Origin: Eubacterium sp.
Lineage (GTDB): Bacteria > Bacillota > Clostridia > Lachnospirales > Lachnospiraceae
DNA length: 64,000 bases
Direction: 5' to 3'
Assembly: GCA_017433825.1 (NCBI GenBank)
Contig: JAFRGL010000023.1
Span: forward strand, 1 to 64,000
Position numbers and translations under genes: made by a program. Below are positions 27,512-51,500 of the stretch, in pieces. Within the stretch, counting starts at the first letter, position 1; each line of letters starts with the position of its first letter. Under the pieces are notes generated by a model. It was not told the DNA's origin. It searched no databases and worked only from the letters and a program-made list of their open reading frames with translations.

Positions 27512-28192
27512 TCAGTCAGTAGTTTTCTTCCGCCGTGAGGCGATTCTGTTCAGAAGCTTCACCACCTGGCCGACGCAGAACGCCGATATGATGGTGCCCT
27601 CGCGGACCACCACCACGTCTCCGGTGAAGGATTTTATACCTCCCAGGAAAATCAGCTGCAGCACCAGGGCGATGCAGATCATGCTCATGTCCACCATCGT
27701 CTTGCAGTCCCCGAAGGGCCTGGTCTTCAGCTTCTGGAAGATGGCTCCCGCCAGTCCTTCCGCCGGCATCGGGATAAGGTTCGGCTGCAGATACGTGAAC
27801 ACGCCGATACCGATGATAAACAGGCTGGCAATCAGATAGACCAGCCTTAAGGGATAAGTCTCCGGCCGCGGGAAATTGTATAGAAGATGTCCGAAAGCAT
27901 TCGGGTTGATTCCCACAAGGTCCACCATAAAGCCGAAAACAATGGCTACCGGGATGCCCAGGATATTCACCAGGCGGAATTTACTCCTCAGGATGAGAAA
28001 CTGGGCAAGGACCAGCAGGCAGTAAACCAGGATGGTGGTGGTGCCCAGGGTGAACCCCCAGATAACCTCCAGAGCCCTGGGAATCGAGCTGACAGGAGAA
28101 ATTCCCAGCCCCGACATCTTGGACACATTGATGCCGACGGCAATAATAAACAGACCGATAATATAAACGATCAGCCGTTTTACGTTCTTCAT
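27512..28192 (-). CDS. YczE/YitT-like membrane protein (DUF6198-like)
   Basis: 226 residues with about five or six membrane segments and GLGISPVSSIPRALE near the N terminus, a hallmark of YczE/YyaS-type proteins. The function is unknown; transport or membrane regulation has been proposed for relatives. Its ATG overlaps the stop of the aminotransferase (ATGA), so it is the last, translationally coupled member of the aryl-acid operon. That context makes a role in moving or sensing aromatic acids or amino acids plausible, but this is inference. Confidence 0.8.
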   Translation of the reverse strand: MKNVKRLIVYIIGLFIIAVGINVSKMSGLGISPVSSIPRALEVIWGFTLGTTTILVYCLLVLAQFLILRSKFRLVNILGIPVAIVFGFMVDLVGINPNAFGHLLYNFPRPETYPLRLVYLIASLFIIGIGVFTYLQPNLIPMPAEGLAGAIFQKLKTRPFGDCKTMVDMSMICIALVLQLIFLGGIKSFTGDVVVVREGTIISAFCVGQVVKLLNRIASRRKKTTD

Positions 28193-29358
28193 CCCAGCAT
28201 CTTCGCCTTGATGTCAGCCAGGCGGTTCAAAGCCTCGTAAAGCGTGTCATCCTTCTTTGCGAAATGCAGCCGGATGATGTCCTTTACCGGCTCCATGAAG
28301 AAGGATGAGCCTGGCACGGCAGCAACGCCCACCTTGGCGGTCATCTCCTCGCAGAATTCCAGATCGTTCTGTCCGGGCTTCATGAAAGGCGCAATATTGG
28401 CCAGGCAGAAATAGGTGCCCTCCGGCTCGGAGAACGGAATGCCGATGTCGCGGAGGCCGTTCGTGAAGATCTGCTTCATATGCTCGTAATGGGCGGTAAA
28501 TTCATCGTAATAGCTGTCCGGCATGTCAAGGCCCACGATGGCAGCCTCCATCAGGGGAGCAGCGGAACCCACGGTATTGAAATCATGGTACTGCTTGATT
28601 CTTTCCATGATATTCTCCGGGGCAATGGCGTAGCCTAAACGCCAGCCTGTGATGGAGTATGTCTTGGAAAGGGAGGAAATGCTGACAGTCCTCTCCCACA
28701 TTCCCGGCAGGGTCGCCATGTAAATGTGCTTCCTGCCGTCAAAGATGATGTGCTCATACACCTCGTCCATAACCGCGTAAACATCATATTTCTTACAGAG
28801 GTCCGCGATAAGCGTCATTTCCTCCATGGTAAACACACGTCCCGAGGGGTTGGCGGGATTGCAGATGAGGATCATTTTCGGGTTCTGGCGGAAGGCGTCT
28901 TCCAGTACTTCCGGATCAAATTTCAGCTCGGGCGGCACCAGGGGCACGTAGATGGGCTCGCAGTCCGCCATAATGCACTGGGCATGGTAATTTTCGAAAA
29001 ACGGGGAAAACAGCACAACCTTGTCCCCCGGATTGGTCAGCGCGAAAATGGTGTCCACCATGGCTTCGGTGGAACCGATGGTTACCACGACTTCCTTATC
29101 CGGATCCAGGTCAAGGCCCATGAAACGGCCGCATTTCCGGCAGAGGGCCTGACGGAAGTTCAGGGCACCCATGGTTATCGGATACTGATGGGGGCCGATG
29201 GCGGAGATTTCACGCAGGCGGTCGGTAATGGCCGCGGGCGGATCAAAATCCGGGAAGCCCTGGGCCAGGTTGATAGCGTCATTTGCAATGGCGATCCTGG
29301 TCATCCGCCGGATGATGGATTCGGTAAACATGGCATTTCTTCTGCTCATTTCTTTCAT
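28189..29358 (-). CDS. Class I/II aminotransferase, probably aromatic
   Basis: 389 residues, PLP fold type I. Seen: AQGFPDFDPP, CNPANPSGRV, DEVYEHIIFDG, and the PLP lysine in SSLSKTYSITGWRLGY (near residue 236). General family: aspartate/aromatic aminotransferases. In the operon with IorAB and aryl-CoA ligases it would interconvert arylpyruvates and Phe/Tyr. GAGGT eight bases before the ATG at 29358. The stop overlaps the start of the YczE-like gene; the ACT protein gene lies 34 bp upstream. Confidence 0.9.
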   Translation of the reverse strand: MKEMSRRNAMFTESIIRRMTRIAIANDAINLAQGFPDFDPPAAITDRLREISAIGPHQYPITMGALNFRQALCRKCGRFMGLDLDPDKEVVVTIGSTEAMVDTIFALTNPGDKVVLFSPFFENYHAQCIMADCEPIYVPLVPPELKFDPEVLEDAFRQNPKMILICNPANPSGRVFTMEEMTLIADLCKKYDVYAVMDEVYEHIIFDGRKHIYMATLPGMWERTVSISSLSKTYSITGWRLGYAIAPENIMERIKQYHDFNTVGSAAPLMEAAIVGLDMPDSYYDEFTAHYEHMKQIFTNGLRDIGIPFSEPEGTYFCLANIAPFMKPGQNDLEFCEEMTAKVGVAAVPGSSFFMEPVKDIIRLHFAKKDDTLYEALNRLADIKAKMLG

Positions 29359-29392: not shown

Positions 29393-29824
29393 TTATAATC
29401 CCAGCGCGAGGCTGTCAGCCGCAGTAATATTGTGTCTGTCCAGGCTTTCCTGCATGGTCTGCATATTTTTTGCGGCAATAATCATATACGCCAGACCGTC
29501 CTTGTGTCCGAAAACGGAATACATGTACTCGATATCCACCCCGTCCCCGGCCAGAAGCTGCAGAAGGTCGTTCAATCCGCCGGGCCTGTCGGGCACCGCC
29601 ACGGCAAACACCGGATTAACGGCAATCACAAACCCTGCCTCGGTTAAGGCTTTCTGCGCTTTTTCGGGATCGTCGGGAATCAGGCGGAGAACGCCGTATT
29701 CCGAAACTTCCGCCACATTCAGGGCGCGGAGGTCGATACCATGCTCGGACAGCACGGAAAGGATGGCAGCCAGCTGCCCTTTTTTATTTTCCATAAACGC
29801 GCTCAGCTGATAAATGTTCTTCAT
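29393..29824 (-). CDS. Double ACT-domain amino-acid-binding protein
   Basis: 143 residues forming two ACT domains (about 4-68 and 70-138): QLSAFMENKKGQLAAILSVL and AVAVPDRPGGLNDLLQLLAG show the typical beta-alpha-beta turns with Gly at the ligand site. No enzyme domain. Such proteins are regularly found with paaK-iorAB in anaerobes. Here it may sense an aromatic amino acid and control the neighbouring enzymes or their transcription. Strong AAGGAGG upstream; it starts 12 bp after the paaK-like stop. Confidence 0.9.
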   Translation of the reverse strand: MKNIYQLSAFMENKKGQLAAILSVLSEHGIDLRALNVAEVSEYGVLRLIPDDPEKAQKALTEAGFVIAVNPVFAVAVPDRPGGLNDLLQLLAGDGVDIEYMYSVFGHKDGLAYMIIAAKNMQTMQESLDRHNITAADSLALGL

Positions 29825-29836
29825 GGTTTTCCCTCC

Positions 29837-31135
29837 TTATATTTTTCTTCTGTCGATAACACGCACGGCCTTGCCTTCGCTTCTTTCGATGCTTCTGGGG
29901 GCAACCAGCCGGATTTTCGCGTAAATGCCCAGCATGGCTTTCATTGCCTGGGTCAGCTGTTTTTCCATCTCGGTAACCGTCGCCAGGCTGCCGTTGAAGG
30001 CATCGGCGGGGATTTCCACACGGATTTCGATGGAATCCGTATTTTCCAGCCGGTCCACGATAATCTGGTAGTTCGCCGGATATCCCTGCTCCAGAAGGAC
30101 GGTTTCGATCTGGGACGGGAATACATTGACGCCCTTGATGACCATCATATCGTCAGACCTGCCCATAGGCCTGCTCATCCGGATGTGGGTTCTTCCGCAG
30201 GAACAGGGCGTATCGTCCAGGATGCAGATATCCTTCGTCCGGTACCGCAGCAGCGGGGAAGCCTTCCGGGTCAGGGAAGTAAACACCAGTTCGCCCTTGC
30301 TTCCGTAAGGCAGAGGCTCCAGGGTGACCGGGTCCACAATTTCCGCGAGATACTGGTCTTCGCAGATATGCATGCCGGCCTGTTCGCTGCACTCATAAGC
30401 CACGCCGGGGCCGCACATTTCCGTCAGACCGTAAATATTGTAGGCTTTGATGCCCAGGTCTCTTTCGATGTTCCTGCGCATCTCATCACTCCAGGCCTCC
30501 GCGCCGAAGATGCCGGCCTTCAGCCGTATTTTATCCCGCAGCCCCCGTTCATGGATGCTTTCCGCCAGATATGCGGCGTAGGAAGGCGTACAGCACAGGA
30601 TGGTCGAACCCAGGTCCACCATAAACTGCAGTTGCCTGTCGGTGTTGCCTGAGGACATGGGCAGTGTCAGGCAGCCCACCTTGTGGCTGCCGCCGTTTAA
30701 GCCGGGGCCGCCGGTGAACAGGCCGTAGCCGTAGCAGACCTGGCACACGTCGTCTTTCGTACCGCCCGCAGCGGTGATGGCCCTGGCGCAGCACTCTTCC
30801 CACAGGTCGATATCCCCCTGGGTATAGCCGGACACCACTCTCTTGCCGGTGGTGCCGGAAGTGGACTGGATACGCACGCATTCCGAAAGCGGAACCGCAA
30901 ACATGCCGAAGGGATAGGTTTCCCTTAAATCGTCCTTGGTCAGAAACGGAAGCTTGTAAAGGTCTTCCACGCCTTTGATATCATCCGGCGTAAGCTTTTT
31001 TTCTTCCATCTTCTGCCTGTAATAAGCCACATTGTCCCAGACATGCTTTACCTGCCGCACCAGGCGTTCGCTCTGAAGGTTCTTTAAGGCGGACCGGTCC
31101 ATGGTTTCTGTTTCTTTCTGATAATACATTTCCAT
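29837..31135 (-). CDS. paaK: Phenylacetate-CoA ligase (PaaK type)
   Basis: 432 residues, the usual size of PaaK. Activates aryl acetates such as phenylacetate to CoA thioesters using ATP. Seen: P-loop-like STSGTTGKRVVSGYT, YNIYGLTEMCGPGVAYEC, and the C-terminal IKGVNVFPSQIETVL. Start is uncertain: ATG 31135, ATG 31129 and the Met at residue 12 are possible, none with a strong ribosome site. It is the second acid-CoA ligase of the operon; it lies 26 bp after iorB. Confidence 0.93.
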   Translation of the reverse strand: MEMYYQKETETMDRSALKNLQSERLVRQVKHVWDNVAYYRQKMEEKKLTPDDIKGVEDLYKLPFLTKDDLRETYPFGMFAVPLSECVRIQSTSGTTGKRVVSGYTQGDIDLWEECCARAITAAGGTKDDVCQVCYGYGLFTGGPGLNGGSHKVGCLTLPMSSGNTDRQLQFMVDLGSTILCCTPSYAAYLAESIHERGLRDKIRLKAGIFGAEAWSDEMRRNIERDLGIKAYNIYGLTEMCGPGVAYECSEQAGMHICEDQYLAEIVDPVTLEPLPYGSKGELVFTSLTRKASPLLRYRTKDICILDDTPCSCGRTHIRMSRPMGRSDDMMVIKGVNVFPSQIETVLLEQGYPANYQIIVDRLENTDSIEIRVEIPADAFNGSLATVTEMEKQLTQAMKAMLGIYAKIRLVAPRSIERSEGKAVRVIDRRKI

Positions 31136-31161: not shown

Positions 31162-31731
31162 TTAGCTTTCCCTGCCCAGTTTATAGGCTTTCAGGTTCAT
31201 TTCCGTAAACTTCTCAGGTACGCATTCCCTGATGACGGTTATCCACTCTTCTTCCGGATAGTCAAAATGCTTTGACAGCCTTCCGATCAACACCAGGTTG
31301 ACCGCTTTTGCACTCCCCGCCTGCTCCGCAAGGGAAAGTGCGTCAAAGGCGTCCAGATTCAGTCCCAGGCCTTTGATATTGTCCTCAATGCCATCCGGGT
31401 AGACCGCCGTACCGGTAATAACCGGCATGGGATTGGTTTTCTGCGTATTGGTGATTAAAATACCGTCCTTACGTAAATATTCGGTCCAGCGGGCCGCCTC
31501 CAGAAGCTCGAAGGAAAGGATAAAGTCCGCCTCCCCTTTGTCAATCAGCGGGGAATATACCTTGTCGCCGAACCGTACGTAGGTAACCACGCTGCCGCCG
31601 CGCTGGCTCATGCCATGCACTTCGGACACTTTGACGTCGAAGCCCCTGCCCACGAAAAGCCTGCCGAGGATTTTGCTGGCAAGGAGTGTTCCCTGGCCGC
31701 CGACACCGACAATCATGATATTCTTTGTCAT
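31162..31731 (-). CDS. iorB: Indolepyruvate:ferredoxin oxidoreductase, beta subunit
   Basis: 189 residues, the gamma-like domain of 2-oxoacid:ferredoxin oxidoreductases: MIVGVGGQGTLLASKILG, GMSQRGGSVVTYVRFG. It pairs with IorA to convert arylpyruvates to aryl-acetyl-CoA plus CO2 and reduced ferredoxin, or the reverse. Start: ATG 31731 eight bases after AAGGAG; longer in-frame readings into iorA are unlikely. It begins three bases before the iorA stop region ends, that is, the genes are almost contiguous (iorA stop at 31734). Confidence 0.95.
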   Translation of the reverse strand: MTKNIMIVGVGGQGTLLASKILGRLFVGRGFDVKVSEVHGMSQRGGSVVTYVRFGDKVYSPLIDKGEADFILSFELLEAARWTEYLRKDGILITNTQKTNPMPVITGTAVYPDGIEDNIKGLGLNLDAFDALSLAEQAGSAKAVNLVLIGRLSKHFDYPEEEWITVIRECVPEKFTEMNLKAYKLGRES

Positions 31732-31733
31732 GG

Positions 31734-33473
31734 TTAAAACTCCTTTCTTTCGGGCAGCGCGCCGAATCTGCAAAGCTGGGCGCAGACGCCGCAGCCGACA
31801 CAAAGCGTACCGTCAATGGATGCCTTGCCGTCCACGATGCTGATGGCCGGGCAGCCTATCTTCATGCAGGCCTTGCAGCCCACGCATTTATCCCTGTCGC
31901 TTACAATCGGGCCGGGATGCTTTACATATTTCAGAAGCGCGCAGGGCCTTCTGGAAATGATGACCGACGGGCAGTCATTTCCGAGTGCTTCCTTAACGGC
32001 CGCTTCACATTCCGCAAGCTTATAGGGGTCCACCACCTTCACATCCGGAATACCGATGCTCCTGCACAACTCTTCCAGATTGATCTTGCCGGCGGGATCG
32101 CCTTTAAGGTTAATGCCGGTGGTGGGATTCTGCTGATGGCCCGTCATGCCGGTAATGGAGTTGTCCAGGATAATAACCGTACAGTTGGATTCATTGTAGG
32201 CGATGTTGACCAGGCCTGTGATGCCGGAGTGGATGAAGGTGGAATCACCGATAACCGCCACGGTATTTTTCGCGTTTTCCGGCGTACTCTTTACAAAGCC
32301 GTGGATGCCGGATACGGAAGCGCCCATGCAGATGGTGGTATCAATTGCGCCAAGGGGTGCCAGGGCTCCTAAGGTATAGCAGCCAATATCACCCAGCACG
32401 TTCACCTTCAGCTTGTTCAGGATGTGGAACATGCCCCTGTGGGGACAACCGGCGCAGAGCACGGGCGGCCTTGCGGGCACATTTTCCGGATAGGCTTTCC
32501 CTCCTTCCGTTTCCAGACCTAAGTCCCTGGCCACGGTCTTCTGGCTGAATTCGTCGATATTCGTGAAGGTTTCCTTGCCCACGGGGTTAAGGCCGATATT
32601 CCTGCAGTGGGCTTCGATCACGCCGTCCAGTTCTTCCACAACCACAAGCTTTCCGACGGAAGCGGCGAAATCCTTAATTTTCTGTACGGGCAGCGGGTTG
32701 ATCATGTCCAGTTTGAGTACCGGATAGGTATCCCCCAGCACTTCCTTCACATACAGGTAGCTGGTGGAGGAGGTAACAATGCCGCAGGAATTATCCTTTC
32801 CTTCTTCAACCCGGTTAATGGATATGGTCTCCGCCAGGGCAGTCAGCTTCGCGGTGCGCTCTTCCACTACGAAATGCCTTGCCTTTGCCATAGCGGGCAT
32901 CATTACGTATTTCTGCGCGTTTTTCACGTAGGGTACGGGGTCTTTTTCCACTCTTTCACCGGTTTCCACAATACTCTGGGAATGGGCTACCCTGGTGCAC
33001 ATCTTCAAAAGCACCGCGGTATCGTATTCTTCGGAAATCTCGTAGGCCAGCTTCGTAAACGCCAGGCTTTCCGCAGAATCCGACGGCTCCAGCATGGGCA
33101 GCTTGGCCGCAACGGCATAATGTCTGGAATCCTGTTCATTCTGGGAGGAATGCATGCCTGCGTCATCCGCCACGGCGATAACCATGCCGGCATTCACACC
33201 GGTGTAGGCAATGGTAAAGAGGGGATCGGCGGCCACGTTCAGGCCAACATGCTTCTGGCCGCAGAAGGAGCGTTTGCCCGCCAGGGACGCGCCGAAAGCG
33301 CTTTCCATGGCCACTTTTTCGTTCGGGGCCCATTCCGCGTAGATTTCATCGTATTTGGCGGCTTCCTCGGTAATCTCGGTACTGGGGGTTCCGGGATAAC
33401 TGGATACAAAACAGCATCCGGCCTCGTAAAGGCCCCTTGCCACCGCTTCGTTTCCGAGCATCAGTTTCTTCAT
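31734..33473 (-). CDS. iorA: Indolepyruvate:ferredoxin oxidoreductase, alpha subunit
   Basis: 579 residues. The pyrimidine-binding domain comes first (YEAGCCFVSSYPGTPSTEI), the TPP site in the middle (GDIGCYTLGALAPLG; GDSTFIHSGITGLVNIAYN), and at the C terminus two [4Fe-4S] clusters (CVGCKACMKIGCPA and CVGCGVCAQLC). Oxidises or forms indolepyruvate, phenylpyruvate and hydroxyphenylpyruvate with ferredoxin. AGGAGG ten bases before the ATG. The first gene of the operon, the acid-CoA ligase, ends 17 bp upstream. The attenuator at 35146-35299 controls it as part of the same transcript (inferred). Confidence 0.96.
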   Translation of the reverse strand: MKKLMLGNEAVARGLYEAGCCFVSSYPGTPSTEITEEAAKYDEIYAEWAPNEKVAMESAFGASLAGKRSFCGQKHVGLNVAADPLFTIAYTGVNAGMVIAVADDAGMHSSQNEQDSRHYAVAAKLPMLEPSDSAESLAFTKLAYEISEEYDTAVLLKMCTRVAHSQSIVETGERVEKDPVPYVKNAQKYVMMPAMAKARHFVVEERTAKLTALAETISINRVEEGKDNSCGIVTSSTSYLYVKEVLGDTYPVLKLDMINPLPVQKIKDFAASVGKLVVVEELDGVIEAHCRNIGLNPVGKETFTNIDEFSQKTVARDLGLETEGGKAYPENVPARPPVLCAGCPHRGMFHILNKLKVNVLGDIGCYTLGALAPLGAIDTTICMGASVSGIHGFVKSTPENAKNTVAVIGDSTFIHSGITGLVNIAYNESNCTVIILDNSITGMTGHQQNPTTGINLKGDPAGKINLEELCRSIGIPDVKVVDPYKLAECEAAVKEALGNDCPSVIISRRPCALLKYVKHPGPIVSDRDKCVGCKACMKIGCPAISIVDGKASIDGTLCVGCGVCAQLCRFGALPERKEF

Positions 33474-33490: not shown

Positions 33491-35125
33491 TTAGTTGGTT
33501 GTCTGCGCTTCAACCAGGGGAACGCTGACATATCTTTGTCTGAGTACGGGCTTTTCAATCTTGCCGGTGGGATTCCTGGGAACATCTGCGAAAATGATCT
33601 TCCTGGGCCGCTTATATTTGGGCAGCTCCAGGCAGAATTCGTTCATTTCCTCTTCCGTCGCCGTCATACCGCTCTTCAGTTCAATGATGGCAGCGGCGAT
33701 TTCGCCAAGTCTCTGGTCCGGCAGGCCGATAACGGCCACATCCTTGATTTTATCGTTTGTCCTTAAGAAATCTTCTATCTGTACCGGATACAGGTTTTCA
33801 CCACCGGAGATGATAACGTCCTTCTTCCGGTCTACCAGATAAATGAAACCGTCTTCCCTTCTGGCCATGTCACCGGTCCACAGCCAGTCGCCGTGGAGCA
33901 CCTCCGCAGTAGCCTCAGGGTTCTTGTAGTATTCCACCATGACGCCCGGGCCTTTGACCGCCAGCTCTCCTACGATGCCGTCCGGAACGTCATTGCCTTC
34001 CGCATCCACAATCCTGGCTTCCCAGCCGTAGCCCGGCACGCCGATGGCGCCGACCTTTTCGATATTTTCCACACCCAGATGCACGCAGCCGGGGCCTAAG
34101 GACTCAGAAAGGCCGTAGTTGGTATCATACAGGTGATCCGGGAAGTATTTCTTCCACCGCTTGATAAGGCTGGGCGGCACAGGCTGCGCTCCGATGTGCA
34201 TCAGACGCCACTGGTCCAGCAGGTACTCTTCCAGTTTGATCGAACCGTCCTCGATGGCGTCCAGCATATCCTGGGCCCAGGGCACCAGCAGCCAGACAAT
34301 GGTGCATTTCTCTTCGGTAACCGTCCTTAAAATCCATTCGGGCTTCACACCCTTTAAGATAACGGCCCTGCTGCAGGAAATCAGTGAGCCGAACCAGTGC
34401 ATCTTCGCACCGGTGTGGTACAGGGGCGGAATGCAGAGGAACACGTCGTCCTTTGTCTGCCCGTGATGCTTCTGCTCGGTCACGCAGGAAGCCACCAGGG
34501 CCCTGTGCCTGTGCAGCATGGCTTTGGGGAAGCCTGTGGTGCCTGAGGAGAAATAAATGGCCGCGATGTCATCCTCCGTCATATGCACCGGGGGCTGGGA
34601 GGAAGAGCAGAAATTCATCAGCCGCATGCAGCTGACTGCGTAGTCCGGGACCTCCTTGCCAAGGAAAAGCAGGGTGTGGACCTTCGGGATTCTGTCAATG
34701 ATGACATCCATCCGGTCGACGAATTCAGGCCCGAAGATAAGGATTTCCACGTCCGCAAGGTCCAGACAGTACTGAATCTCCTCACTGGTATACCGGTAGT
34801 TCAGAGGCACTACCGTACAGCCGGATTTCAGAATGCCGAAATACAGCGGCAGAAATTCCAGGCAGTTCATCAGAAGCATGCCCACTTTGGTGCCCGGTTT
34901 CACATTCCTGCTTAAGAGGAAATTAGCAAACCGGTTTGACATCGCGTCGAAAGCACGCCAGGACATTTCACGCCTGTAAGGCGCATCCGGCATAGCCAGC
35001 TCTATCAGGCTGGACTCCCGCCAGGTATGGGCATTATCCCGTTCCTCGGTGGGGTTGATTTCCACAAGGGCAATCTCCGAACCATGAAACCGGGCATTTT
35101 TCTCCAGAAAATCAGTTATTACCAT
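33491..35125 (-). CDS. AMP-forming acyl/aryl-CoA synthetase
   Basis: 544 residues, ANL superfamily. Seen: P-loop YFSSGTTGFPKAMLHRHR, DTNYGLSESLGPG, the hinge TGDMARREDGFIYLVDRKKD, and catalytic lysine in RNPTGKIEKPVLR near the C terminus. It activates a carboxylic acid through an adenylate to a CoA thioester. In an operon with IorAB and PaaK, an aryl acid (for example an arylacetate or aryl-propionate) is the most likely substrate; this is inferred. AAAGGCGGG eight bases before the ATG. It is the first gene after the attenuator. Confidence 0.92.
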   Translation of the reverse strand: MVITDFLEKNARFHGSEIALVEINPTEERDNAHTWRESSLIELAMPDAPYRREMSWRAFDAMSNRFANFLLSRNVKPGTKVGMLLMNCLEFLPLYFGILKSGCTVVPLNYRYTSEEIQYCLDLADVEILIFGPEFVDRMDVIIDRIPKVHTLLFLGKEVPDYAVSCMRLMNFCSSSQPPVHMTEDDIAAIYFSSGTTGFPKAMLHRHRALVASCVTEQKHHGQTKDDVFLCIPPLYHTGAKMHWFGSLISCSRAVILKGVKPEWILRTVTEEKCTIVWLLVPWAQDMLDAIEDGSIKLEEYLLDQWRLMHIGAQPVPPSLIKRWKKYFPDHLYDTNYGLSESLGPGCVHLGVENIEKVGAIGVPGYGWEARIVDAEGNDVPDGIVGELAVKGPGVMVEYYKNPEATAEVLHGDWLWTGDMARREDGFIYLVDRKKDVIISGGENLYPVQIEDFLRTNDKIKDVAVIGLPDQRLGEIAAAIIELKSGMTATEEEMNEFCLELPKYKRPRKIIFADVPRNPTGKIEKPVLRQRYVSVPLVEAQTTN

Positions 35126-35145
35126 AGTTTACCCGCCTTTCCTAT

Positions 35146-35190
35146 AAAAAAAGCACCCACCCTCATTGCTTATCAATAAGGGCGGATGCT
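35146..35190 (-). terminator. Attenuator terminator before the aryl-acid operon
   Basis: 17 consecutive pairs, including G-U (35174-35190 with 35152-35168), 5-nt loop, then six T (35146-35151). It stands after a Phe/Tyr-rich leader ORF and 21 bp before the first gene's ATG. Bases 35178-35192 can instead pair with leader codons 17-21 (35237-35251), which would destroy the terminator. Confidence 0.93.
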
Positions 35191-35218
35191 GTAAATCCTT
35201 TTTTGCCCGCTGAAAAAA

Positions 35219-35299
35219 TCAGCCGAGCGCAGGTATACAACGATCCGCCTTACTAAAGTAAAAATATCCGAAATATCCGAAATATCCGAAGCTTTTCAT
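35219..35299 (-). CDS. Phe/Tyr-rich leader peptide (attenuator)
   Basis: 26 codons, MKSFGYFGYFGYFYFSKADR then CIPALG. Codons 4-15 contain five Phe (TTC, TTC, TTC, TTT, TTT) and four Tyr (TAT, TAT, TAT, TAC) codons; FGY is repeated three times as a 9-bp DNA repeat. No Trp codon. AAAGGA lies nine bases before the ATG and a promoter about 25 bp before that. The following terminator and alternative pairing fit ribosome-mediated attenuation: a ribosome waiting for Phe-tRNA or Tyr-tRNA would leave codons 17-21 free to form the antiterminator. Known leaders of pheA, pheST and trp work this way; application here is inference from sequence. Confidence 0.88.
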   Translation of the reverse strand: MKSFGYFGYFGYFYFSKADRCIPALG

Positions 35300-35332
35300 T
35301 GTATACTTTCCTTTGCGTTTTATTAATTCAGT

Positions 35333-35361
35333 ACTCTATCACGATTTACGGCTAAAGTAAA
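35333..35361 (-). promoter_or_regulatory. Probable promoter of the aryl-acid operon
   Basis: Minus strand TTTACT (35356-35361), 17 bp, TAGAGT (35333-35338), each matching consensus at four of six positions. The predicted start near 35326 leaves about 27 nt before the leader ATG. It lies directly behind the DUF4003 stop codon, with no terminator between, so read-through from that gene is also possible. Confidence 0.5.
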
Positions 35362-35398: not shown

Positions 35399-36373
35399 TT
35401 ACATGTATCGGAAGCGGCCGGACATGATATTCGCGAAAGCGAAGATGGCAATCCAAAGGCCGGTAAAGCAGTCCTGTGTCCGGTAAAACGGCGTACCGCT
35501 CTCATCCTTGTAGGGAAGGGCTGCTATGGCTGCCATAATAAGGGCATAGCTTCTTCTCATCCTTTCCGCTTTCTTACCTCTGCCGAATATGTGCAGGGGC
35601 GTCAGCATGTCATCCGCCTTGCTGTACAGGCTGATGAATTCGTCCATCGGTATGCGAAGCAGCGGGAGAAGCCCCAGGGCAATACCGTATTCTATCACGT
35701 CATATTCCCTGCCGGCCTTTTTCGCGGCATCCAGGAAGGGCTTGATGCTTTTGCAACGTGTCGGCGTATCGCCCGGCGCCATGCACATGACAGAGGCAAC
35801 ATATTTTGCCTGTTCCGGATGCATCGGATACATGGTTTTGCAGATATCGTAAATGTGCTGGATATCATCAATCAGCTTGTCCGGATCTTCATGGGCAACC
35901 GCCAGAACCGCACAGGTATAGACGTCGTGGTTATGCAGGACGAAGGGATTTAAGGACATGAGCCTTCTGTGCACGTAGAATGCCTGGTCCGCCTCTTCCA
36001 TGCTGCAGGTGCCGAACCGTTCGGACATTGTAACGGCCCCCAGATACACCTGTTTGGGTGTACAGTCCGTAACCCTGTCGATATAGCCGTAATTGTTCTG
36101 AATGTGGCTTGTCAGGGAAGTGATTTCCTGATGAACCAGCAGTTTTCCCACAGTAAACAGCCTGAAATCATCCGTCAGTTTTTTCAGGAATCCATCGCCG
36201 TTTACCCGGTCCGTATATAATGTCATCTTCTCTTGTGAGATGGCAATACCTTCCCTTGCCGCCATTGCAGCCGCCACCAGAAGGCTGTCTCCCTTCACCT
36301 TCGGAAACTTCTCAACCATAACCCGCAGGTTGCTGATGAACATATTGACGATTTCCTGCAGCTTCTCGTTCAT
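35399..36373 (-). CDS. DUF4003 family protein
   Basis: 324 residues, mostly helical, no signal and no clear membrane anchor. It matches the DUF4003 family of Firmicutes in length and in segments such as KFPKVKGDSLLVAAAMA and the central LNPFVLHNHDVYTCAVLAV. The function is unknown. It has its own strong promoter and lies directly upstream of the aryl-acid attenuator in the same direction, about 40 bp before its promoter; a functional link is not demonstrated. The ribosome site before the ATG is weak (AAAGA). Confidence 0.75.
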   Translation of the reverse strand: MNEKLQEIVNMFISNLRVMVEKFPKVKGDSLLVAAAMAAREGIAISQEKMTLYTDRVNGDGFLKKLTDDFRLFTVGKLLVHQEITSLTSHIQNNYGYIDRVTDCTPKQVYLGAVTMSERFGTCSMEEADQAFYVHRRLMSLNPFVLHNHDVYTCAVLAVAHEDPDKLIDDIQHIYDICKTMYPMHPEQAKYVASVMCMAPGDTPTRCKSIKPFLDAAKKAGREYDVIEYGIALGLLPLLRIPMDEFISLYSKADDMLTPLHIFGRGKKAERMRRSYALIMAAIAALPYKDESGTPFYRTQDCFTGLWIAIFAFANIMSGRFRYM

Positions 36374-51277: not shown

Positions 51278-51500
51278 AAAAAAAGTCGCCTCCTTTTCGC
51301 ACTTTTTTCAGTACGACAAGCGGTGACTGTACACATCTCCGTGTGTTTCTTAAGGATTCACACGTTGTTTCCACATCATTCGGTGGACTATTGGGTTGTA
51401 CAGTGACTTGTCGCCAGTTTCTTGAACGGACATTTGCTCCCCGTAAATTACCTGCACACGCTGCAGCAACCTCACGGATCTACGCTTTTATGTCACAGCA
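51278..51500 (-). promoter_or_regulatory. Structured 5' leader of the S10 operon
   Basis: About 220 nt. Its two ends pair: CGACAAG with CTTGTCG (51314-51320 and 51407-51413), continued by ACTGTACA with TGTACAGT (51326-51333 and 51397-51404), giving a 15-bp long-range stem with an internal loop. Inside lies a smaller hairpin (ACACAT...GTGTGT). This is the right place and scale for feedback control by a ribosomal protein such as L4, but I recognise no known consensus. Confidence 0.6.

Follow-up and report, generated by a model that had tools for sequence, protein, structure and literature searches.

The locus raises the question of which signal switches on an aryl-acid operon in a member of the Lachnospiraceae, and whether the short open reading frame (ORF) in front of it, rich in phenylalanine and tyrosine codons, takes part in that decision. 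The window, i.e. the whole 64,000-nucleotide stretch of Eubacterium sp. DNA that was analysed, carries the following run of genes:

33491..35125, minus strand: AMP-forming acyl/aryl-CoA ligase of 544 aa, the first gene (PF00501/PF13193)
31734..33473, minus strand: iorA, alpha subunit of indolepyruvate:ferredoxin oxidoreductase (IOR) (TIGR03336, above cut-off)
31162..31803, minus strand: iorB, beta subunit (NF005325, above cut-off)
29837..31135, minus strand: paaK-like phenylacetate-CoA ligase (TIGR02155, 479 bits, below the cut-off of 646; PF14535)
29393..29824, minus strand: protein with a pair of ACT domains (PF19571)
28189..29358, minus strand: class I/II aminotransferase (PF00155)
27512..28192, minus strand: YczE/DUF6198-like membrane protein, overlapping the aminotransferase gene (PF19700)

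By their coordinates, adjacent genes from the ligase to the membrane protein overlap or lie 12-34 nt apart, so the run is likely to be one operon, of which the YczE/DUF6198-like gene is a possible last member. The true start of iorB probably lies inside the annotated ORF, and iorA is the only TIGR03336 match above cut-off in the window's genome. The leader lies in the gap of 273 nt that separates the ligase from the upstream DUF4003-like gene (35399-36373); its elements are listed here with reference to a sister genome, L009:

35333..35361, minus strand: putative promoter TTTACT-17-TAGAGT (by eye; below the promoter scanner's threshold)
35306..35313, minus strand: Shine-Dalgarno-like AAGGAAAG of the leader ORF (from the sequence)
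35299..35306, minus strand: segment 1 (protector), GTATACAA, complementary to 35233-35240 and identical in L009
35219..35299, minus strand: leader ORF, MKSFGYFGYFGYFYFSKADRCIPALG, 26 codons with an ATG start (ORF call; diverged leader in L009)
35233..35251, minus strand: segment 2, the antiterminator 5' strand (35237-35251) plus the protector partner (35233-35240)
35178..35192, minus strand: segment 3, the shared strand, forming the antiterminator with segment 2 or the terminator with segment 4
35146..35190, minus strand: intrinsic terminator, 17-pair stem and 7 T (folding and terminator scan)

The original prediction, made from the sequence alone, had described a 26-codon ORF with nine Phe/Tyr codons among codons 4-15, preceded by a ribosome site, and both were confirmed. 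The aromatic codons are numbers 4, 6, 7, 9, 10, 12, 13, 14 and 15 (five Phe, four Tyr and no Trp), and the ORF holds a 9-nt tandem repeat (TTCGGATAT, three times). The terminator stem (35190-35152) has the 17 predicted pairs around a 5-nt loop, and its T-run counts seven rather than six; no other terminator-like site occurs in the 701 scanned bases, against a chance expectation of 0.8 if any stem of at least 5 pairs is counted. The promoter-like boxes are present but weaker than had been stated, with two sites listed by the promoter scanner against 1.0 expected by chance and no strong call.

The competing 14-bp pairing between leader codons and the terminator arm was likewise recovered: codons 17-21 (35251-35237) pair with 35192-35178 through 14 pairs interrupted by two single-base bulges, as counted by eye. 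This antiterminator overlaps the 3' part of the leader and is mutually exclusive with the terminator in silico. A further pairing, absent from the original prediction, adds a third arm to the switch: GUAUACAA at the start codon (35306-35299) is the exact complement of 35240-35233. The pairings 1:2 (protector), 2:3 (antiterminator) and 3:4 (terminator) make up the classic attenuator layout. The Stem I specifier loop and the core (GGTGGTACC) of a T-box (RF00230) are absent from the window's leader, and no Rfam amino-acid leader family reaches its gathering score there; the five relaxed Rfam matches at the leader (E up to 5) fall far below theirs.

The aromatic content of the leader was compared with chance expectation in the window and 80 loci, 934,283 bases read on both strands. 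Among ORFs of 10-50 codons, the window's leader is the sole one with at least nine Phe/Tyr in 12 codons; four ORFs have at least eight, and two of them (window and L009) carry a Shine-Dalgarno-like site. No ORF in 20 Markov copies of the window reaches seven or more, and 1 Mb generated with the composition of the window's AT-rich intergenic gap yields 27 ORFs with at least seven, 6 with at least eight and 1 with at least nine. As for the pairings, the antiterminator energy was matched by 7 of 2000 shuffled leaders for the window and 0 of 2000 for L009, and the protector energy by 2 and 3 of 2000, respectively.

L009 is an uncultured Lachnospiraceae (RUG14126) of the window's genus, with a ligase 88% identical to that of the window. 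Its leader, MKRFAFYGYYYFFRRADRCVQNFA, occupies the same place. In the alignment, segments 1 (GTATACAATGAAA), 2 (GGCGGATCGTTGT) and 3 (ACAGCATCCGCC) are identical in the two genomes. Divergence affects the peptide, the middle part of the leader, the terminator loop, the upper stem and the 3' arm (segment 4), and the arms still pair. Such retention of segments 1-3 amid divergence is expected if each of them serves two pairings. The tandem repeat is absent from L009, which keeps the ORF, its start and its aromatic content; this content is therefore maintained without the repeat. The promoter-like boxes of the window are also kept, as TTTACT-17-TAAAGT. A strict ungapped terminator rule misses the L009 terminator. 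A search for the pattern of segments 2 and 3 across 397 genomes of the family, a sample to which the sister genome does not belong, recovered the window's genome only.

The switch was modelled by masking an assumed ribosome footprint and folding the remaining RNA, with five footprints. For L009, the antiterminator probability is 0.88-0.98 with the ribosome at codons 4-7 under the main footprint and 0.50-0.99 when all five are considered; without a ribosome, the terminator probability is 0.89. For the window at equilibrium, the antiterminator reaches only 0.51-0.69 at its best codon (5-7, depending on the footprint), and the terminator is near 1 at nearly all the others. When the RNA is folded only up to segment 3, the antiterminator probability is 0.94-1.00 with the ribosome at codons 1-11 in both leaders, and 0.91-0.98 at codons 1-14 in the window; it falls to about 0 once the ribosome has reached codons 18-23 in the window or 16-21 in L009. 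Without a ribosome the values are 0.94 (window) and 1.00 (L009); a ribosome placed at the stop codon gives 0.94 and 0.99. As the fold before arm 4 fails to distinguish stalling from an absent or a finished ribosome, discrimination must come from the kinetics of the 1:2, 2:3 and 3:4 pairings. The window's own predicted switch is weakly backed by this model.

With this anatomy, it is probable that the leader is a ribosome-mediated transcription attenuator sensing charged tRNA-Phe and tRNA-Tyr, whose scarcity would turn on a reductive aryl-acid operon. When both charged tRNAs are plentiful, the ribosome would cross the leader and mask segment 2 (codons 16-23), allowing 3:4 to pair, and transcription would end in vivo before the ligase. 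When either is scarce, the ribosome would stall at the first Phe/Tyr codons (codons 4-7 being the most effective in the model), covering segment 1 and freeing segment 2; the 2:3 pairing would then form, and the polymerase would read into ligase-iorA-iorB-paaK-ACT-aminotransferase. In the case of no translation, 1:2 would pair, as in the full-length fold, making termination the default. The operon products would in turn convert an aryl acid to the aryl-CoA (ligase/PaaK), carboxylate it reductively to the arylpyruvate (IorAB with reduced ferredoxin) and transaminate the latter to Phe or Tyr (aminotransferase).

The region upstream of the ligase was surveyed in four samples: (a) 80 ligase loci, the best 80 among the matches listed; (b) six of the seven genomes of the window's genus; (c) 130 genomes drawn from the 139 that carry the ligase in a family sample of 397, including the window's genome and G001 and leaving out G012, G087, G097, G153, G160, G173, G208, G333 and G373; and (d) the genus of locus L024, where 13 of 15 genomes bear the ligase and 12 of these 13 gave a readable upstream. 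These gave 225 upstream entries including the window, or 221 after dropping four that repeat the last 203 nt of another, and some are shorter than 400 nt where a contig ends. Loci L264-L292, from the same family and in many places coinciding with sample c, stood outside the screen.

The screen, which asked for a short aromatic ORF, a Shine-Dalgarno-like site and a terminator, passes 8 of the 225 real upstreams; among 225 reverse complements and as many Markov copies it passes none. The passing entries are the window, L009, L024 (the same as L251), L254, L257 (the same as L192) and L076; the last, a weak GTG candidate, was not counted as a leader. Leader-like ORFs of L021, L078, L085, L087, L115, L155 and others were set aside, either for want of a Shine-Dalgarno-like site with a terminator or for the distance of the ORF.

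The test set in advance, the presence of a Phe/Tyr leader before orthologous operons, supports the prediction. Such a leader precedes the operon in L009 and in five genomes of the L024 genus. Of the six genomes of the window's genus that bear the ligase, the other four show no such leader. In the family sample, 1 of 128 upstreams passes the screen (L192, with the same sequence as L257). Given its lack in four same-genus genomes and this single pass in the family, the leader is lineage-specific. In three genomes of the window's genus (L091, L092 and L093) iorA adjoins the ligase and neither a leader nor a T-box core precedes it; promoter-like boxes can be seen by eye in the upstreams of L092 and L093. 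In 17 loci (L014, L017-L020, L022, L030, L032-L034, L036, L044, L045, L058, L066, L078 and L086), the ligase and iorA are separated by 1.4-2.2 kb of intervening sequence that may hold an extra gene.

The second set of leaders comes from the genus of L024, in the same family, where iorA directly follows the ligase in 9 of 12 readable genomes. Five of these nine (L251, L254, L255, L256 and L257) have Phe/Tyr leaders, with a GTG start in L251 and a TTG start in L255, whose contig ends early. L255 and L256 fail the automatic screen and were accepted because both align with L257; the T-run after their hairpins is short. In L255-L257, a conserved GAAUGGUUCUU can pair with either the leader start (AAGAACC) or the 5' arm of the terminator, and L254 and L251 have their own versions of the alternative pairing. 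The best predicted duplexes of the five leaders have energies of -14.4 to -17.8 kcal/mol. The folding model behaves erratically on L024. The other four iorA-linked genomes (L253, L258, L259 and L260) have T-box cores with UAC specifiers, below the Rfam gathering score, and the three without iorA (L252, L261 and L262) show neither a leader nor a T-box core. By eye, the leaders of this genus have no sequence likeness to that of the window, and the leader groups do not align. Each of the 7 leaders has 2-5 Phe codons and 2-4 Tyr codons; Trp codons occur in none of them.

T-boxes provide a second device on the same ligase. A T-box core lies upstream of it in 31 loci, 30 of them distinct (L053 is the same as L102). 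The match reaches the Rfam gathering score in 23 of the 31, that of L079 lying about 490 nt away, and stays below it in eight (L052, L055, L058, L099, L253, L258, L259 and L260). Specifiers were read by eye or by regular expression, eight also in the Rfam alignments, and all 31 could be read: 27 are UAC (Tyr), four are UUC (Phe; L014, L032, L033 and L038), and none is of another type. L058 apparently has two T-boxes, the core before the ligase and an above-cut-off match just before iorA (L058:9464-9703).

The two devices are distributed as follows, with 400 nt of upstream sequence considered. Where iorA lies within 700 nt of the ligase (51 distinct loci including the window), 7 loci have a leader, 10 a T-box and 34 neither; most iorA-linked operons must therefore be controlled otherwise or by unrecognised elements. 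With iorA at 700-2500 nt (19 loci), there are no leaders, 5 T-boxes and 14 loci with neither; with no iorA in view (142 loci), no leaders, 13 T-boxes and 129 with neither; and at contig edges (9 loci), no leaders, 1 T-box and 8 with neither. These classes account for the 29 distinct T-boxes found within 400 nt.

A quick ligase tree was built by a short search from 121 of 220 usable sequences, with 100 of sample c left out except as repeats. On this tree, the distribution of leaders requires three changes of label, every one of them forced by starred branches: window plus L009, L024, and L254-L257. Three changes on the tree, together with the lack of evident sequence likeness, suggest that leaders arose three separate times, with transfer and loss as the alternatives. 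As judged from sequence, the operon has come repeatedly under putative Phe/Tyr-tRNA control by two devices, even within one genus.

These comparisons bear on the other explanations of the locus. The terminator might simply end the DUF4003-like gene, with the operon promoter near the ligase and the ORF an accident of AT-rich repeats, and the tandem repeat in the ORF, the one comparable ORF per 1 Mb of intergenic composition and the lack of a strong promoter call would all suit that account. L009, however, keeps the ORF, its start, its aromatic content and segments 1-3 without the repeat, parallel leaders occur in other genomes, and the screen passes appear in real upstreams (three of the eight being duplicate copies or the weak L076) and in neither control, which makes an accident very unlikely. 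A riboswitch or protein-binding attenuator, in which the ORF would matter little, gains from the invariance of the RNA segments between the window and L009, but what is invariant is the set of pairing strands, the leader matches no Rfam family at gathering score, and Phe/Tyr content recurs across dissimilar leaders; it is rated as quite improbable. Translational control, with leader stalling unmasking the ribosome-binding site of the ligase, is scarcely credible: the minimum free energy fold of the window does pair the sequence just before the ligase start with the 3' part of the leader, but the 17-pair stem with seven T has the look of a canonical terminator, and L009 preserves it in a different sequence.

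A different objection accepts a true Phe/Tyr attenuator and reads the operon as oxidative or catabolic, for instance balancing the fermentation of aromatic amino acids. A link of IOR with peptide fermentation is known, as a reference title in PMC13285125 indicates, and the same paper reports that the IOR of Bacteroides thetaiotaomicron takes part in the conversion of Phe to phenylacetate. Against this, there would be little sense in inducing degradation when the charged tRNA of the substrate is scarce. PMC13285125 itself argues that AMP-forming ligases work preferentially towards acyl-CoA and that the Bacteroides IOR may be biosynthetic. A catabolic operon is thus considered unlikely. The preferred reading remains ribosome-mediated attenuation, as the original prediction had it, supported by L009, the five leaders of the other genus and the Tyr/Phe T-boxes.

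According to the profile matches of its genes, the content of the operon fits the supply of Phe and Tyr. Control that turns the operon on during starvation, whether by leader or T-box, would suit an anabolic direction (aryl acid to aryl-CoA to arylpyruvate to Phe/Tyr). IOR can in principle also serve Trp. The window's genome encodes a prephenate dehydratase too and may thus make Phe in another way; the ligase/IOR operon would then serve for salvage alongside the classical pathway. The host habitat is presumably the rumen, to judge from the source names of the closest relatives (RUG isolates). Rumen bacteria are known to make Phe from phenylacetate (Allison 1965, cited in PMC7356843), and in Methanococcus maripaludis the synthesis of aromatic amino acids draws on aryl acids (Porat 2004, cited in PMC4162585). 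The direction of the Bacteroides IOR is disputed in a 2026 paper (PMC13285125), where IOR reportedly takes part in forming phenylacetate from Phe in B. thetaiotaomicron and the Bacteroides enzyme is nevertheless argued to be possibly biosynthetic, an argument that rests there on a linked arylacetate-CoA ligase. The locus thus bears on the question of whether gut anaerobes use a ligase-linked IOR to synthesise aromatic amino acids or to degrade them, and an attenuator expected to fire on Phe/Tyr shortage, together with the Tyr/Phe T-boxes, would be independent evidence for synthesis in these Clostridia.

The mechanism itself is already well known. The enterobacterial pheL-pheA, pheM-pheST and trpL leaders are ribosome-mediated attenuators, and the window's leader shares with them a peptide rich in the regulated amino acid, the 1:2/2:3/3:4 pairings and an intrinsic terminator. 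Unlike them, it has an aryl-acid ligase/IOR target, both Phe and Tyr codons, a Lachnospiraceae host and no Rfam match. The replacement of T-boxes by leaders in Firmicutes also has precedent. The hisS*/hisZ leaders of bacilli, as presented by Naville and Gautheret 2010 (PMC2965389), are predicted to replace a T-box in the same way, but they concern histidine, whereas here the target is an aryl-acid operon and both devices occur within one genus. In S. aureus, the leucine-rich attenuator peptide of ilv-leu, described in PMC5794164 with the backing of mutants, stands where B. subtilis has a T-box; the amino acid and the operon differ. Acholeplasma uORFC-13-1, listed in PMC8632094 before aroF, is a predicted Phe-containing uORF next to a terminator in front of an aromatic pathway gene, in that case a shikimate gene, and the uORF has at least one Phe codon rather than the Phe/Tyr run found here. 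Closest in target are the Tyr/Phe T-boxes (RF00230) on the same ligase, which share gene, tRNAs and the expected starvation-on logic; they are tRNA-binding RNAs without a leader peptide and with one specifier each, while the leader combines Phe and Tyr codons.

The original prediction knew of no such attenuator for this kind of operon, and none was found among the matches listed. In that set, where subscription journals are thinly covered, no title or abstract start mentions an attenuator or a T-box on an IOR operon, and no paper was found linking a T-box with phenylacetate-CoA ligase or with ferredoxin oxidoreductase and tyrosine. The terms indolepyruvate, ferredoxin and phenylacet are absent from the main text of a T-box survey (PMC2494555). 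Among the matches listed, the target, the dual Phe and Tyr codons and what appear to be three origins are new. A joint reading, for which the chances are about even, is that gut Lachnospiraceae invented Phe+Tyr leader attenuators for an aryl-acid salvage operon at least three times, interchanging them with Tyr- or Phe-specific T-boxes even in one genus. The leader would then be a two-tRNA OR gate as against the one-tRNA T-box, and the common starvation-on logic would mark the ligase/IOR operon as biosynthetic. Two tRNA-sensing devices that interchange on one operon within a single genus could be used to study how leader peptides originate.

Elsewhere in the same genome as the window, a T-box match below cut-off stands before a trpB-like gene and another before a transporter-like gene, both with UGG specifiers (genes and specifiers as judged by eye), so T-boxes may handle the Trp side. 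Another below-cut-off T-box match (81.5 bits; L241, at G000:C12:56259-56485) precedes a gene that by eye resembles the gamma subunit of a 2-oxoacid:ferredoxin oxidoreductase; this locus may be a counterpart of the aryl-acid operon that serves other amino acids. An S10-Clostridia ribosomal protein leader (RF03136) lies at positions 51408-51490 of the window, on the minus strand.
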